A stretch of DNA of 64,000 nt, from the NCBI GenBank assembly GCA_022925895.1, contig JAKSYS010000103.1:56799-120798 (forward strand), given 5' to 3'. Under the pieces are notes generated by a model. That model had not been told where the DNA came from. It did no database searches and worked only from the letters and a program-made list of their open reading frames with translations. The stretch comes from Fragilaria crotonensis. Its lineage: Eukaryota; Bacillariophyta; Fragilariophyceae; Fragilariales; Fragilariaceae. The position numbers and the translations under genes are program-made. Positions 26,981 through 31,647 of this stretch are shown one piece after another (the first letter of the stretch is position 1; each line of letters opens with the position of its first letter).

Positions 26981-28031
26981 CATCATGTTTTCTACATGCA
27001 AAGTCCATTGCGACTACGACATACGAATAAACTGTATATACATAGATAGAGATACGAAGATTGTTCACGCGAGTACTTGTCATCCACCTACTACAAGTAC
27101 CGGTTGTACCATTCCAACCAGGCTTGACTGCACGATACGCGATGTCGATTGCATACACTGGGTAATAGTGCCCATATCACGCATACCTGCAAACTACTGT
27201 AGAATCAAAACATACTGGTGTACTGGAGTATCATACAATACAGATCCTCGGACTGAAGTCTGTGCCTGTGCCCTTTCATGATAGCAAGGGAAAAGCTCGC
27301 CTGGAGTAGTACAAGTACTCCAGTACGTCCTCGACAGTAAAATCATCCGTACTTGTACTGGTACTACGGACTCACAAAGAGATATGGTATTCAGTATACA
27401 GTATGAATATAGTGCCAGTAGCATGCGTTCGCGTATTGGAGAATTGGAGTGCACATTGCACATAGCGCAGTGCACACAAGGAAGACGAGAGTGAAATCAA
27501 TACGCTCCGAGTATCGTACTTGTACTCTGCATGTGTATGCACACAACCCTATTATTGGTATGATATAGGTACACGAATTGCAGTACGAGTACCTACGACG
27601 GCACAGATTACGATCATCGAGTCTGTTTCAGTTCGCAGCGTCCGCAGCTAAACCCTAAACCTATTTTACATACAGTACGTAGATAGTAGAATCTTTTTTG
27701 GTAGCACGTGATCGTTGATACTCTGAGTATTTGTACTGTAGTTGATGATAGTAGTCCGAGTAATGGGAGTACTACAGTTCTACTCTAGTAGTAGAGAGTA
27801 GTAGTACAAGGACCAGTTACAACGAAGCAGAATCTTGCACTCTCCGGGAAAAATTTGGACTTTCCCGCATCTCCCTGTACTTCGTATGAATGAAACGCAG
27901 CGTTCCGGCAAGTTTGAGGCGGGACGCATAAATGCAGGTCGGGGTTATCAATCGGGATTACTCGGCGTACCAAAACTCGCCGTACATACCATTTTTGAAA
28001 GGCACAAATAGACCCCCCTTCATTTTACACG
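26981..28031. other. Gene-free GTAC-rich stretch
   Basis: Numerous GTAC words (27075-27110, 27290-27370, 27500-27600, 27720-27810), no recognisable frame. A single CTAAACCCTAAAC word at about 27651 is isolated and not a telomere array. Confidence 0.45.
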
Positions 28032-28088
28032 TATGGCTGGTTTCACGCTCGAGAAACGCGAGGTAGCCTCTGCTACATTTTCTACACG
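28032..28088 (+). repeat. Left ITR and TA duplication of the 3.6-kb transposon
   Basis: TA at 28032-28033, then TGGCTGGTTTCACGCTC. Beyond the first 17 bp the match to the right end continues with scattered mismatches (GAGGTAG is shared). Confidence 0.85.
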
Positions 28089-31000
28089 CCGATTGATTCC
28101 ACTAGATAAAATCTGACTTACGACGTCATGTCGCACAATAATTTACACGAGGTAAGCAGCAGCGTCGACGATGAGATTTGACACATTCGGAATCGTCACA
28201 ATAACGACCGCGGCTTGACTCACCCATGCCTTTACCCTCTTCATTGTCATAGGATTCGAAAGGTATGAGTGAGTCAAGACGCGACAAAAGCGTTGGCTCA
28301 AAAACTTCAATAATTCGAAGTGCCTTCTTGAAGATTTGTTATGACAGCACCTTCCAACGACGACTCTGGAACAAGTGGTTACCTGCGGAGATTTGGGTGG
28401 AAGCACTGGCAAAATCAAACCTAATAGATCATCTTCTCATGTCCTCAATAAAGGTTGGTGCTTTTAATGCAGCAATGGGAAGGAGTGGCGGTGACTTTGA
28501 TGGCCAGATGATCTCGCGCTATGATGGAACAAACATGACAGGAATTTTTCGTTTGATCTTTCAGCGAACCACGTTTTATAATGTGACTGACAAGAACAAG
28601 CAAGTTTGCTATCCATCACCACTTGGCGATAGTTGGAAAGAAGGTGTGATGGATGTAGCTAAGAATGTTTTTTGGTTTCAAGTGACAAGGTCGACGTGCA
28701 CTCGTCAGATTGTTCTTTTGGAACAGCACTGCGATGATCCTGCTGCTTCAAGCAAGCGTCAGAGAACAGACAACTGTGAGGATGACATTGTTGCTCCTGC
28801 ACCGCACCATCTTGTGTTGTGTCCAACAGAACAACAGCAAGACACATCCTCCTCTACTACAGCAGTCGAGACTAATCTAGAAGCCGTGTCGAATTCTTCT
28901 CTTCCTTTAGCATCGTACTGGAACAGTCGAGATGCTTCTAATTTGTTTGGAGGGGGACACCAACTTGGTGGTACACCTTTAGATGTGAGAGATCTACTGA
29001 AGCTACGTGTCGAGCTTCTTCAGTTGGTCAATCGTGGCGAAAGTGGGTGGCGAAATGTCATTCAAGGTCGTGACCCCGAAAATCTCTGCTCTCCATCCGA
29101 TATCTTTGCGGTTCGAGGACGAGCCACAATTCTTTGCCTTGCCTATCAACTGGCAATAAAGTATATGAATAAGTGGACTTGGGAGCAATGTTGTGAGCAT
29201 GCCTGCTCACAGCTTAATCCGCTCGGAATTGAACAAGCAACTCACAATCGCGCAGTGCAAGATTGGAATGGTATATTTCGAGTAGAGGGCAGTTTCCCGC
29301 ATCCAAATCATGCAGTACGATGTGGCAAGAAGCCTTTACCACTTTTATTCGAGAAGTACCCGGTTGCTATTGACGATATAATCCAGTTTGGGGTGAAGAA
29401 CCTGACAACTCTGACTGTTGAATCGTTTCATGGCTTTTGCCACGAAATTCTGTTGCCAAAGCTGTTTGAGCAGTGGCGGTCCGATGTATTACGTAGCTGT
29501 GACACCAGTACTACAAACGCCGGACAAGACATTTCACTGTTGACGATGCAAGCATTCATGAACCAACATAGAATCAAGATGCTGAGTATTCCAACCTGCT
29601 GGCGGTGGCTACACCGTCTCGGGTTTAGGTACGAATATCAGCGGAAAGGATACTACGTCGATGGACACGAACGCAGTGATGTCGTCGCATCCCGAAAAGC
29701 TTTCTGTGAGACGTATTTGACAGATGTGGAGCCTCGATGCTTGCGATGGATACGTGTCTCGCAACGTGAGTTGGAGACAACTCATAAAATCCTAAATCCT
29801 GAGTTTGGATATCGATTTAATGATGAGAACAATCAATCCTATGTTGAGTTTCACGTGGACTACTGTACTAGTAAGCAAGGCAAAGCTGCTGGCGGCGAGC
29901 CATTAGTATTTGAGAAACCTAGCATGAGTATCCGAGCACCGCATGGATCTATGCCGATTGAAGTCTTTGGCCAAGATGAGAGTGTTTTCTCGCAATTCAT
30001 CTTCCCAACAAAGACTTGGATGGGCCCTAATCAAGAACGAGGACTCTTCCCAAAATCACTTGGCGAGGGACTCATGATATCGGCTTTCGTATCGAGGGAT
30101 TCAGGATTTGGAATGCCAGTAAGTCCTGCACAATTGGATGCCATCAACCACCTTCGCTACGGCACCGATTACATTGACAAAGTGGCAGCAATGAGTATAC
30201 ATTTGACCACATGCAAGGCTCCCCTGAAAGAATCACCGTTTGTGCGGAGCCTTCTCATCGGTGCAACAAAGGGTGGGTATTGGAACAGCTATCATATGGC
30301 AATCCAATTGGAGGATGCCGTAGACTGCCTCCGTATCCTGCGGCCTGGCTTTGAATTTGTCTTTCTCTTTGACCATAGCCAGGGCCACGCCCGTAAGAAG
30401 GAAGGGGCTCTCGATGCCTCAAGTATGTCACGCAGCTACGGCGGTGTACAACCTAAGATTCGAAACTCCGAGATCACCGAAGGATGTCTTGGACCCTTTA
30501 ATCCTTGCCTGAGAACGGGAGACATGCAATCCATGATCTTCACAGAAACAGATACTGGTCCGTGGTGGATTACAACGCAAGAAGGACGTGAAGCTCGGAA
30601 GCATGACATAATTCATGATCCGCTTCCAGGTGCAGCAATCAAGCTTGCAAACCGAACCAAGGTTCAACTTGCTCGTGCCCTTAATGACGAGGCGGGTATC
30701 GCTGTCGACCCCCTTCGGCCTATGGATGAACTCAAGGAGATTGCAAATACGCACGGGGTCTCCCTCCAGTATGCTAAAGCTCGAATCACCGAAGGCTGGT
30801 GTATGAAACCTAAAGGACTCTTACAAATTCTGTGGGAGCGAGGATGGATCAATCCTGGTGAGTGTATGACATTTAAACAGGACAAAACAGCGGGCAGGAT
30901 TGTGAATACCTCGTTCTACACTATCAATGGTCACAAAGATCCGCAAACCGGACAGATTCTTGATTTGTTGTCACTGAGAGCTCTCATGGGACAATGCTCA

Positions 31001-31645
31001 GACTTCAAGGAAGAGGATACCGCTCTACAGTTCCTTGGAAAGCAGCTGGGCTTGAGAGTTCTCTTCACTCCAAAATTTCACTGTGAATTTGCCGGAGAGG
31101 GCATCGAATACAACTGGGCGCACGCCAAAGCAAAAATGCGAATCACCCCCATTCGCGAAAAGAAAGGGCGAGCAAATTTCATCGCTCTTGTGATGAAGTG
31201 TTTATGTCCTGAGAATGTGCTGACAAAGGAGAGGATTAGAAAATTTGCAGCGCGTGCAAGAGCGTACATTTGCACTTACTACCACTTGTCAAGGGATTCC
31301 GAAACCATCGAGAACAATCCAATTGCTGGCGAGCCGGCATTCGTCAATATTGCTGAGAAGCAACAACTCCTGTACAAGGAGATCGAGCGATTGATGAAAA
31401 AATTCAAGACTCATCGGTGCGCGCTCGATTTCGACAACAGCTTTGTCAGATCCAACTTGATCGATCTGACAGGAGAGTAACACTTTGCATCAATTCGTTG
31501 TGACAACAATTGATGTGAATGGAATGCGTTTCGTTTGATCACGAAAGATACGAAATTACTGATGACGTCTACTATGGAGTTTATTGGACGACTGTAGCCG
31601 AAGTACCACAGCCTACCTCTCGAGTCTTGAGCGTGAAACCAGCCA
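28034..31645 (+). mobile_element. Complete IS630/Tc1-mariner-like DNA transposon, TA-flanked
   Basis: 3,612 bp. The two ends start TGGCTGGTTTCACGCTC as inverted repeats; the first 17 bp are identical and similarity continues imperfectly for at least ~55 bp (about 28034-28088 against 31645-31591). Both ends are directly flanked by TA (28032-28033 and 31646-31647), the target duplication expected of the IS630/Tc1/mariner superfamily. The interior holds one uninterrupted transposase gene. A complete ORF, paired ends and a TA duplication together suggest a young or even active copy. Confidence 0.85.
28265..31480 (+). CDS. DDE transposase, IS630/Tc1-mariner-like, 1071 aa
   Basis: Catalyses cut-and-paste transposition of the surrounding element. 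ATG at 28265, no introns or stops. Residues 1-440 are not recognised. A linker typical of IS630-type proteins follows (SIPTCWRWLHRLGFRY, KGYYVDGHERSDVVASRKAF). The catalytic triad reads VFGQDESVFSQF (D571), FVFLFDHSQGHARK (D703) and, in PKFHCEFAGEGIEYNWAHAK, E948; these match the FxDE, DxxxxH and PxxNPIExxW boxes of the superfamily. The long D703-E948 spacing (about 245 residues) carries an insertion absent from classical mariner, where the spacing is about 34. The PKFHCE...IEYNWAHAK box and the DGHERxDVV motif recall large transposase-like proteins of basidiomycete fungi. At 1071 aa it is about three times the size of a mariner transposase. Intact triad and borders suggest it could still work. 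Confidence 0.88.
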   Translation: MSESRRDKSVGSKTSIIRSAFLKICYDSTFQRRLWNKWLPAEIWVEALAKSNLIDHLLMSSIKVGAFNAAMGRSGGDFDGQMISRYDGTNMTGIFRLIFQRTTFYNVTDKNKQVCYPSPLGDSWKEGVMDVAKNVFWFQVTRSTCTRQIVLLEQHCDDPAASSKRQRTDNCEDDIVAPAPHHLVLCPTEQQQDTSSSTTAVETNLEAVSNSSLPLASYWNSRDASNLFGGGHQLGGTPLDVRDLLKLRVELLQLVNRGESGWRNVIQGRDPENLCSPSDIFAVRGRATILCLAYQLAIKYMNKWTWEQCCEHACSQLNPLGIEQATHNRAVQDWNGIFRVEGSFPHPNHAVRCGKKPLPLLFEKYPVAIDDIIQFGVKNLTTLTVESFHGFCHEILLPKLFEQWRSDVLRSCDTSTTNAGQDISLLTMQAFMNQHRIKMLSIPTCWRWLHRLGFRYEYQRKGYYVDGHERSDVVASRKAFCETYLTDVEPRCLRWIRVSQRELETTHKILNPEFGYRFNDENNQSYVEFHVDYCTSKQGKAAGGEPLVFEKPSMSIRAPHGSMPIEVFGQDESVFSQFIFPTKTWMGPNQERGLFPKSLGEGLMISAFVSRDSGFGMPVSPAQLDAINHLRYGTDYIDKVAAMSIHLTTCKAPLKESPFVRSLLIGATKGGYWNSYHMAIQLEDAVDCLRILRPGFEFVFLFDHSQGHARKKEGALDASSMSRSYGGVQPKIRNSEITEGCLGPFNPCLRTGDMQSMIFTETDTGPWWITTQEGREARKHDIIHDPLPGAAIKLANRTKVQLARALNDEAGIAVDPLRPMDELKEIANTHGVSLQYAKARITEGWCMKPKGLLQILWERGWINPGECMTFKQDKTAGRIVNTSFYTINGHKDPQTGQILDLLSLRALMGQCSDFKEEDTALQFLGKQLGLRVLFTPKFHCEFAGEGIEYNWAHAKAKMRITPIREKKGRANFIALVMKCLCPENVLTKERIRKFAARARAYICTYYHLSRDSETIENNPIAGEPAFVNIAEKQQLLYKEIERLMKKFKTHRCALDFDNSFVRSNLIDLTGE

Positions 31646-31647
31646 TA
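31591..31647 (-). repeat. Right ITR and TA duplication of the 3.6-kb transposon
   Basis: Reads as the reverse complement of the left end: GAGCGTGAAACCAGCCA followed by TA at 31646-31647. Confidence 0.85.

Follow-up and report, generated by a model that had tools for sequence, protein, structure and literature searches.

A 64,000-nucleotide stretch of the genome of the diatom Fragilaria crotonensis (contig JAKSYS010000103.1, positions 56,799 to 120,798; hereafter the window) contains a 3612-bp element with a single, oversized transposase gene. We predict with good confidence an autonomous DNA transposon, one that forms part of a distinct giant branch within the IS630-Tc1-mariner group. Membership in this group is assigned because of the TA target, the order of the catalytic boxes, and a relative, L043, that bridges the window protein to known transposases. 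The unit also contains a newly noticed part, an inverted repeat at the start codon, whose arms vary between copies while their complementarity is kept.

Borders of the element and its family in the genome

The element proper occupies window positions 28034-31645 and has a TA dinucleotide on either side. The left end reads TA followed by TGGCTGGTTTCACGCTC from 28032, and the reverse complement of this closes at 31647. The inverted arms (28032-28086 and 31593-31647, 55 nt with the TA included) are 80% complementary, which gives inverted ends of about 53 bp, and the two ends match in 19 of the first 20 bases. The preliminary description of this DNA had named inverted repeats with this tip and direct TA flanks, and we find both at the same positions. 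Beyond the TA, the bases at the window copy's two ends and at most other listed ends do not form TATA, so the target duplication is TA.

Relatives of the window protein are encoded at no fewer than 43 places (64 matched stretches) in the genome searched (62.1 Mb, 881 contigs); this is a lower bound, since scoring covered just 43 of 1133 candidates. The same genome has 19 matches to the silicon transporter family, the best at E 4e-193, which marks it almost certainly as that of a diatom, or of some other silicifying protist. Among the 23 loci read in detail (L001 and L009-L030), eight have frames of at least 1000 amino acids, and 16 have paired inverted ends adjoining TA that lie 3537-3700 bp apart (in L021 this is the second-ranked pair). 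The end-pairing scan of the 23 loci took in TA-preceded positions only. As the end pairs of these 16 loci and of the ten non-autonomous copies described below were searched with TA, they give weaker support for the TA target. A separate tip scan, which allowed up to four mismatches, did not require TA and counted duplicate loci once, found 16 end-like sites in family loci, and TA precedes all 16. The scan's only other match, at window 62292, lacks TA and does not mark an end of the family.

Tips in the family are TGGCTGGTTTCAC, CAGCTGGTTTC and CAGCAGGTTTC with near variants, and there is an inner conserved block around GTAC. Allowing at most one mismatch, we counted 86 occurrences of the pattern TATGGCTGGTTTCACNNTC in the genome and 0 of its reversed control, which argues that the ends are not due to chance. 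Further copies with the same ends flanked by TA therefore exist, which rules out ends peculiar to this single locus. The earlier suggestion that the borders of this copy define the mobile unit is borne out by the tip scans, the end pairing, the 86 to 0 pattern count and the limits of the match between two recent copies (L025 and L028, below).

The transposase and its link to known transposases

The gene had been described as an unbroken frame of 1071 codons with D571, D703 and E948 as its acidic residues and about 245 residues between the last two. The frame and the three residues are as described, and the spacing between D703 and E948 is 244. All three residues are invariant in the 11 copies aligned, some of which are partial frames, with 131-136 residues from D to D and 225-246 from the second D to E.

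Purifying selection acts on the family transposases, as shown by the ratio of nonsynonymous to synonymous substitution rates (dN/dS) in the six pairs with computable dS; synonymous sites are saturated in all other pairs. The ratio is 0.08 for the window copy and L009 and also for L011 and L009, 0.10 for L018 and L023, and 0.21-0.24 among L012, L013 and L014.

A family-library scan (E up to 1) finds HTH_33 in three of ten members (best E 0.0019), SAP_new25 also in three (best E 0.002), and transpos_IS630 in two (best E 0.0013). The SAP_new25 match at residues 815-839 of L021 (E 0.002, below the cut-off) is near amino acids 793-837 of the window protein, the one better-modelled patch of a poor AlphaFold2 model, which is made of helices with a predicted local distance difference test score (pLDDT) of about 67-81. 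Searching the PDB sequences with the window protein gave nine matches up to E 10, all to U2AF and at E 0.15 or worse, and a PDB search with the family profile gave no match. Matches of family proteins to Gln-synt_N, U2AF, PdxR and GabR were taken as chance.

The link to known transposases comes from a search of prokaryote genomes for FHCELNxIE, which returned seven contigs. Three of these (L043, L045 and L048) encode relatives, those of L045 and L048 being partial. L043 (JAJPIN010000208.1) is a 3072-bp contig binned as a Nitrososphaeria (archaeal) metagenome-assembled genome (MAG), and it encodes a 696 amino acid protein. This protein shares several stretches with the window protein (best E 5e-11), over the helix-turn-helix, both D regions and the E region. 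It also matches DDE_3 at E 4.4e-6 (27.1 bits; cut-off 28.6 bits) and IS630 at E 2.1e-8 (34 bits; cut-off 100 bits). Its own ends read TA followed by TGGTGCATATCATCTAAAG and CTTTAGATGCGTTGCACCA followed by TA. L043 resembles the window element in its TA-TGG ends, helix-turn-helix, D-D-E order, KG.KQIL.ERG module and PKFHCE box. It differs in its length of 696 amino acids, in an N-terminal part that aligns poorly, in a D to E spacing of 129 residues (the L041 IS630 protein has 34), and in having no start-codon hairpin on examination. The preliminary description had proposed a distinct giant clade of the IS630/Tc1/mariner superfamily; the minimum of 43 genome places shows it inside this genome, and this TA-flanked relative, with its DDE_3 and IS630 matches below the cut-offs, supports it.

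L043, L045 and L048 carry these transposase relatives within archaeal and bacterial MAGs. They are probably eukaryotic binning contamination, and L043 would then be a eukaryotic stray. We take the L043 protein to resemble fungal proteins, and PKFHCE-type boxes plausibly resemble those of large fungal proteins. Searches of the viral, phage and prokaryote collections, apart from plasmids and E. coli genomes, confirmed no direct relative of either the window protein or L043.

Recent movement and non-autonomous copies

Comparison of copies shows that members of the family have moved recently. The 3579-nt match between L025 and L028 has 98.97% identity; it starts at a common G before the left TA and stops at the right TA, and the 500-bp flanks of the two copies have just a 16-base opposite-strand match (E 0.017).

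There are also 13 facing pairs of the same ends about 1.85-1.91 kb apart, as counted from the TATGGCTGGTTTCACNNTC match list. We fetched ten of these copies of about 1.88 kb (L054-L063, on G000:C390, C450, C539, C576, C658, C769, C131, C374, C426 and C98). Identity among six of them is 99.1% or higher, and these six occupy five different sites, L054 and L057 being counted as one site because they have common flanks. L061 and L062 are 99.3% identical, and L056 and L060 stand apart. Of the sequence of autonomous copies, they retain about 280-650 bp at the start and 80-120 bp at the end, which gives them the appearance of non-autonomous derivatives mobilised in trans.

A covarying hairpin at the start of the gene

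Folded as RNA, window 28200-28300 gives -39.6 kcal/mol (z -6.3), and z ranges from -6.4 to -1.3 in seven copies folded, the weakest being L015. In 17 of 21 copies, positions -85..-31 and -28..+23 relative to the ATG are joined by a stem with a score of at least 9; the 21 do not include L024 (no matching start pattern) and L026 (no N-terminus found). Stems formed with a copy's own partner arm sum to 253. With exchanged partners the mean is 137.8 (sd 10.2, maximum 192), and none of 20000 exchanges reaches 253.

The copies fall into two groups, each with a fixed pairing register. Group 1 has 11 sequences (seven autonomous and four non-autonomous; D to E spacing 240-246 where measured), in which 146 of 165 cells pair (88%) and there are 19 additional Watson-Crick pair types; slid registers reach no more than 42% and 7 types. 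In group 2, nine copies with a spacing of 225-228 where measured (L018 and L023 being given an offset of 6), 112 of 135 cells pair (83%, against at most 47%), with 18 pair types against at most 7. These pair counts leave out L012, L013, L019, L022 and L024, and also the near-copies L028, L055, L057, L058, L059, L062 and L063. Because the register was itself taken from these sequences, the slid controls are tilted towards it, and the partner exchange is the fairer control.

The hairpin either overlaps the start codon or sits shortly ahead of it. In 14 of 15 elements it begins 160-179 bp and ends 235-250 bp inside the left tip, which places it at 160-250 bp within the unit. Inverted repeats at the right ends have best scores of 5-9, about shuffle level. 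The non-autonomous copies have a stem of 11-16 in nine of nine examined (L057 is outside this set). In L012, L013, L019, L022 and L024 the hairpin is absent or barely present. We rejected the idea that the arms are internal copies of the inverted repeat tip: the arms of 13 copies are no more similar to it than shuffled sequences are (156 of 500 shuffles reach the sum).

From these comparisons the pairing is real, and action in RNA and action in DNA are both compatible with the data; the hairpin may serve to silence the element itself, or it may be a structure at the level of DNA. A serious alternative, which we hold somewhat improbable, is that it has no function and that template switching during replication keeps converting one arm into a copy of the other. 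G-U cells make up 7 of the 42 non-Watson-Crick cells (counted from the pairing table), as by chance, and this speaks against selection on RNA pairing; the five copies with little or no hairpin also fit a functionless repeat. Such conversion is harder to reconcile with a register that is constant within each of two diverged groups, or with a near-constant distance from the left end while right ends stay about shuffle level.

If the hairpin is a functional part of the unit, as we prefer, bacterial elements offer a model. IS10 and IS50 are protected from outside transcription by a fold-back mechanism, in which an inverted repeat folds the read-through mRNA and not the element's own transcript. 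We know of no IS10-type fold-back mechanism in eukaryotic DNA transposons. By analogy, the diatom hairpin might silence the transposase in transcripts from outside, while a promoter of its own in the loop would yield an unfolded, translatable mRNA; we consider this eukaryotic counterpart rather doubtful. In both cases the inverted repeat spans the transposase start. The bacterial mechanism acts on the ribosome site; the function here is putative.

Comparison with published groups

Both the TA target and the bounding terminal inverted repeats of the IS630-Tc1-mariner hyperfamily are present in the element. Classical Tc1/mariner transposases have about 350 amino acids, so that the window protein is some three times as large. 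As far as the parts of the papers compared go, Tc1/mariner elements (DD34 to DD41) share with the window element the TA target, inverted repeats and a helix-turn-helix before the DDE/D core, and differ in a D to E spacing of 34-41 without a large insert (PMC8533490, PMC7325037). The 225-246 residues found in 11 copies place the family outside Tc1/mariner proper, which has 34-41 from the second D to D/E.

The Sailor (DD82E) superfamily, in the part of its description compared, has DD78-111E, TATA duplications and a transposase of about 676 amino acids, and occurs in stramenopiles among others (PMC8533490). It is similar to the window element in its IS630-type boxes, the HCE in the last box, an enlarged D to E spacing and a long transposase. 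It differs in the 4-bp TATA rather than TA, in a spacing of 78-111 rather than 225-246, and in a length of 676 rather than 1071 amino acids (PMC8533490, same part), so the element does not fit Sailor in spacing or target. The pogo (DDxD) elements belong to the same hyperfamily, and in the part of the paper compared their spacings of 56 and 59 (DD56D, DD59D) are called very large; their third acidic residue is D, and their DNA-binding domains come from other Pfam families (PMC7386202). Their DDD triad is not that of the diatom family, in which E948 is invariant in 11 of 11 copies.

The print compared, in part, also includes a Marasmius paper that mentions a 3,972-bp TcMar element (PMC9674265) and a Tisochrysis paper (PMC5963040). 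Neither a branch with DD~225-246E nor a start-codon hairpin is described in the open-access titles and abstract starts; Repbase-type reports lay outside this scope, and a prior description is possible.

Several results weigh against an autonomous transposon of this group. Of the 23 loci, seven are without a clean end pair at the expected distance: the pairs of L012 and L019 lie 4557 and 4804 bp apart, L010 and L014 have one convincing end, and L013, L022 and L026 have none. For the window protein Pfam gives HTH_33 alone, below the cut-off, and both model matches of L043 also fall short of theirs. With a 16-protein IS630 profile, hmmsearch gives E 0.05 for the best diatom member and 0.17 for the window protein (12-sequence set). 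Alignment to IS630 by hhalign, with the insert cut out, is weak (E 0.014, probability 3%); it places D703 and E948 on IS630 residues, and D571 is not on its counterpart. AlphaFold2 models have very low confidence, both from the single window sequence (pLDDT 33.9) and from a four-row alignment of a window fragment, L043, L045 and L048 (pLDDT 36.7). In the genome, the joined flanks of L025, L028 and L059 match their own locus and short partial stretches only, so that these three insertions show no empty site; none was found for the window copy either, whose right flank is unique and whose left flank is another repeat.

Could the window copy be a fossil or a domesticated gene that no longer moves? 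We think this unlikely. Its closest DNA relatives among the loci read are just 71-74% identical over 2.3-2.6 kb, its closest protein match (91%) is to a copy with stops (C261), and the missing empty site points the same way. Its frame is unbroken, its triad is intact, and dN/dS is 0.08. Its ends still match in 19 of the first 20 bases, and a domesticated gene would not need them. An active window copy is the reading we favour.

It is very unlikely that the element represents a separate DDE superfamily that merely shares a TA target and box style with IS630-Tc1-mariner: the direct IS630 profile match is not significant, Pfam DDE_3 does not match the window protein, a DDE_3 scan of the genome finds no ordinary element of that type at E 0.001 (six candidates scored) and the D to E spacing is far beyond the published ranges in the parts compared, but L043 matches the window protein across the helix-turn-helix, D and E boxes as well as both the DDE_3 and IS630 models, the order of the aligned D and E boxes is as expected, and the TA target comes with short TGG/CAG tips.

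Predicted mechanism and significance

As a member of the IS630-Tc1-mariner group, the element may work as follows. The 1071 amino acid transposase would probably bind the ends of about 53 bp through the helix-turn-helix that precedes its catalytic core. A D571-D703-E948 active site of RNase H type, interrupted by the stretch of about 245 residues between the second and third acidic residues, would then cut the element out by cut-and-paste chemistry. The excised element would insert at TA, which would be duplicated, and the covarying inverted repeat near the left end is an additional part of the unit, most likely a regulatory one. Given the weak direct profile matches and the very low confidence of the structure predictions, the RNase H fold is one that we infer.

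Because the unit is fully bounded and many relatives of graded divergence occur within a single genome, it allows the ends, the target and the protein to be defined jointly. This giant branch is without a listing in the published classifications, in the parts compared. The D to E spacing, which is used for naming clades, can grow roughly seven-fold in a family whose members have still been recently mobile. The covarying hairpin at the start of the transposase is a clear, testable regulatory candidate, and a TA-targeting transposon native to diatoms is a possible genetic tool there.

Table 1. Predicted features of the transposon, in window coordinates
Feature	Position	Strand	Evidence
TA target duplication, left	28032..28033	.	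Sequence; TA-independent end scan of family loci
Left terminal inverted repeat, tip TGGCTGGTTTCACGCTC	28034..28086	+	Arm comparison, end scans
5' arm of covarying inverted repeat (hairpin) at gene start	28209..28233	+	Folding and covariation analyses
3' arm of hairpin, overlaps ATG at 28265	28259..28283	+	Folding and covariation analyses
Transposase gene, 1071 codons	28265..31480	+	Unbroken open reading frame; homologues; dN/dS 0.08 against L009
Helix-turn-helix-like block, aa 438-480	29576..29704	+	Common to L043 (23/43 residues); weakly HTH_33 / IS630
D571, first catalytic Asp (GQDESVF)	29975..29977	+	Invariant in 11/11 copies; aligned with L043
D703, second catalytic Asp (FLFDHSQGH)	30371..30373	+	Invariant in 11/11 copies; aligned with L043
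Main part of D703-E948 insertion, aa 736-910	30470..30994	+	Limits set by analyst; D to E spacing comparison
Three-helix patch inside insertion, weakly SAP-like, aa 793-837	30641..30775	+	pLDDT about 67-81; SAP_new25 match in L021
KPKGLLQILWERG motif, aa 848-860	30806..30844	+	Common to window protein and L043
E948, catalytic Glu (PKFHCEFAGEGIEYNW)	31106..31108	+	Invariant in 11/11 copies; aligned with L043
Right terminal inverted repeat	31593..31645	-	Arm comparison, end scans
TA target duplication, right	31646..31647	.	Sequence; end scan and end pairing in family loci

Other observations on flanks and ends

A dispersed repeat of about 435 bp at window 27432-27877 stops about 155 bp left of the element. 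The 600-bp left flank has 15 matches (window included), most of them at least 93% identical, and the repeat is possibly a long terminal repeat (LTR) or other repeat.

Two end sequences in the same orientation lie 32 bp apart at G000:C507:32675-32725, which may reflect an element inserted beside or within the end of another. Facing ends are also found 6.36 kb apart at G000:C458:20498-26854 and 4.42 kb apart at C140:44911-49326, distances that exceed the typical element; nested insertions or cargo would account for these larger pairs.

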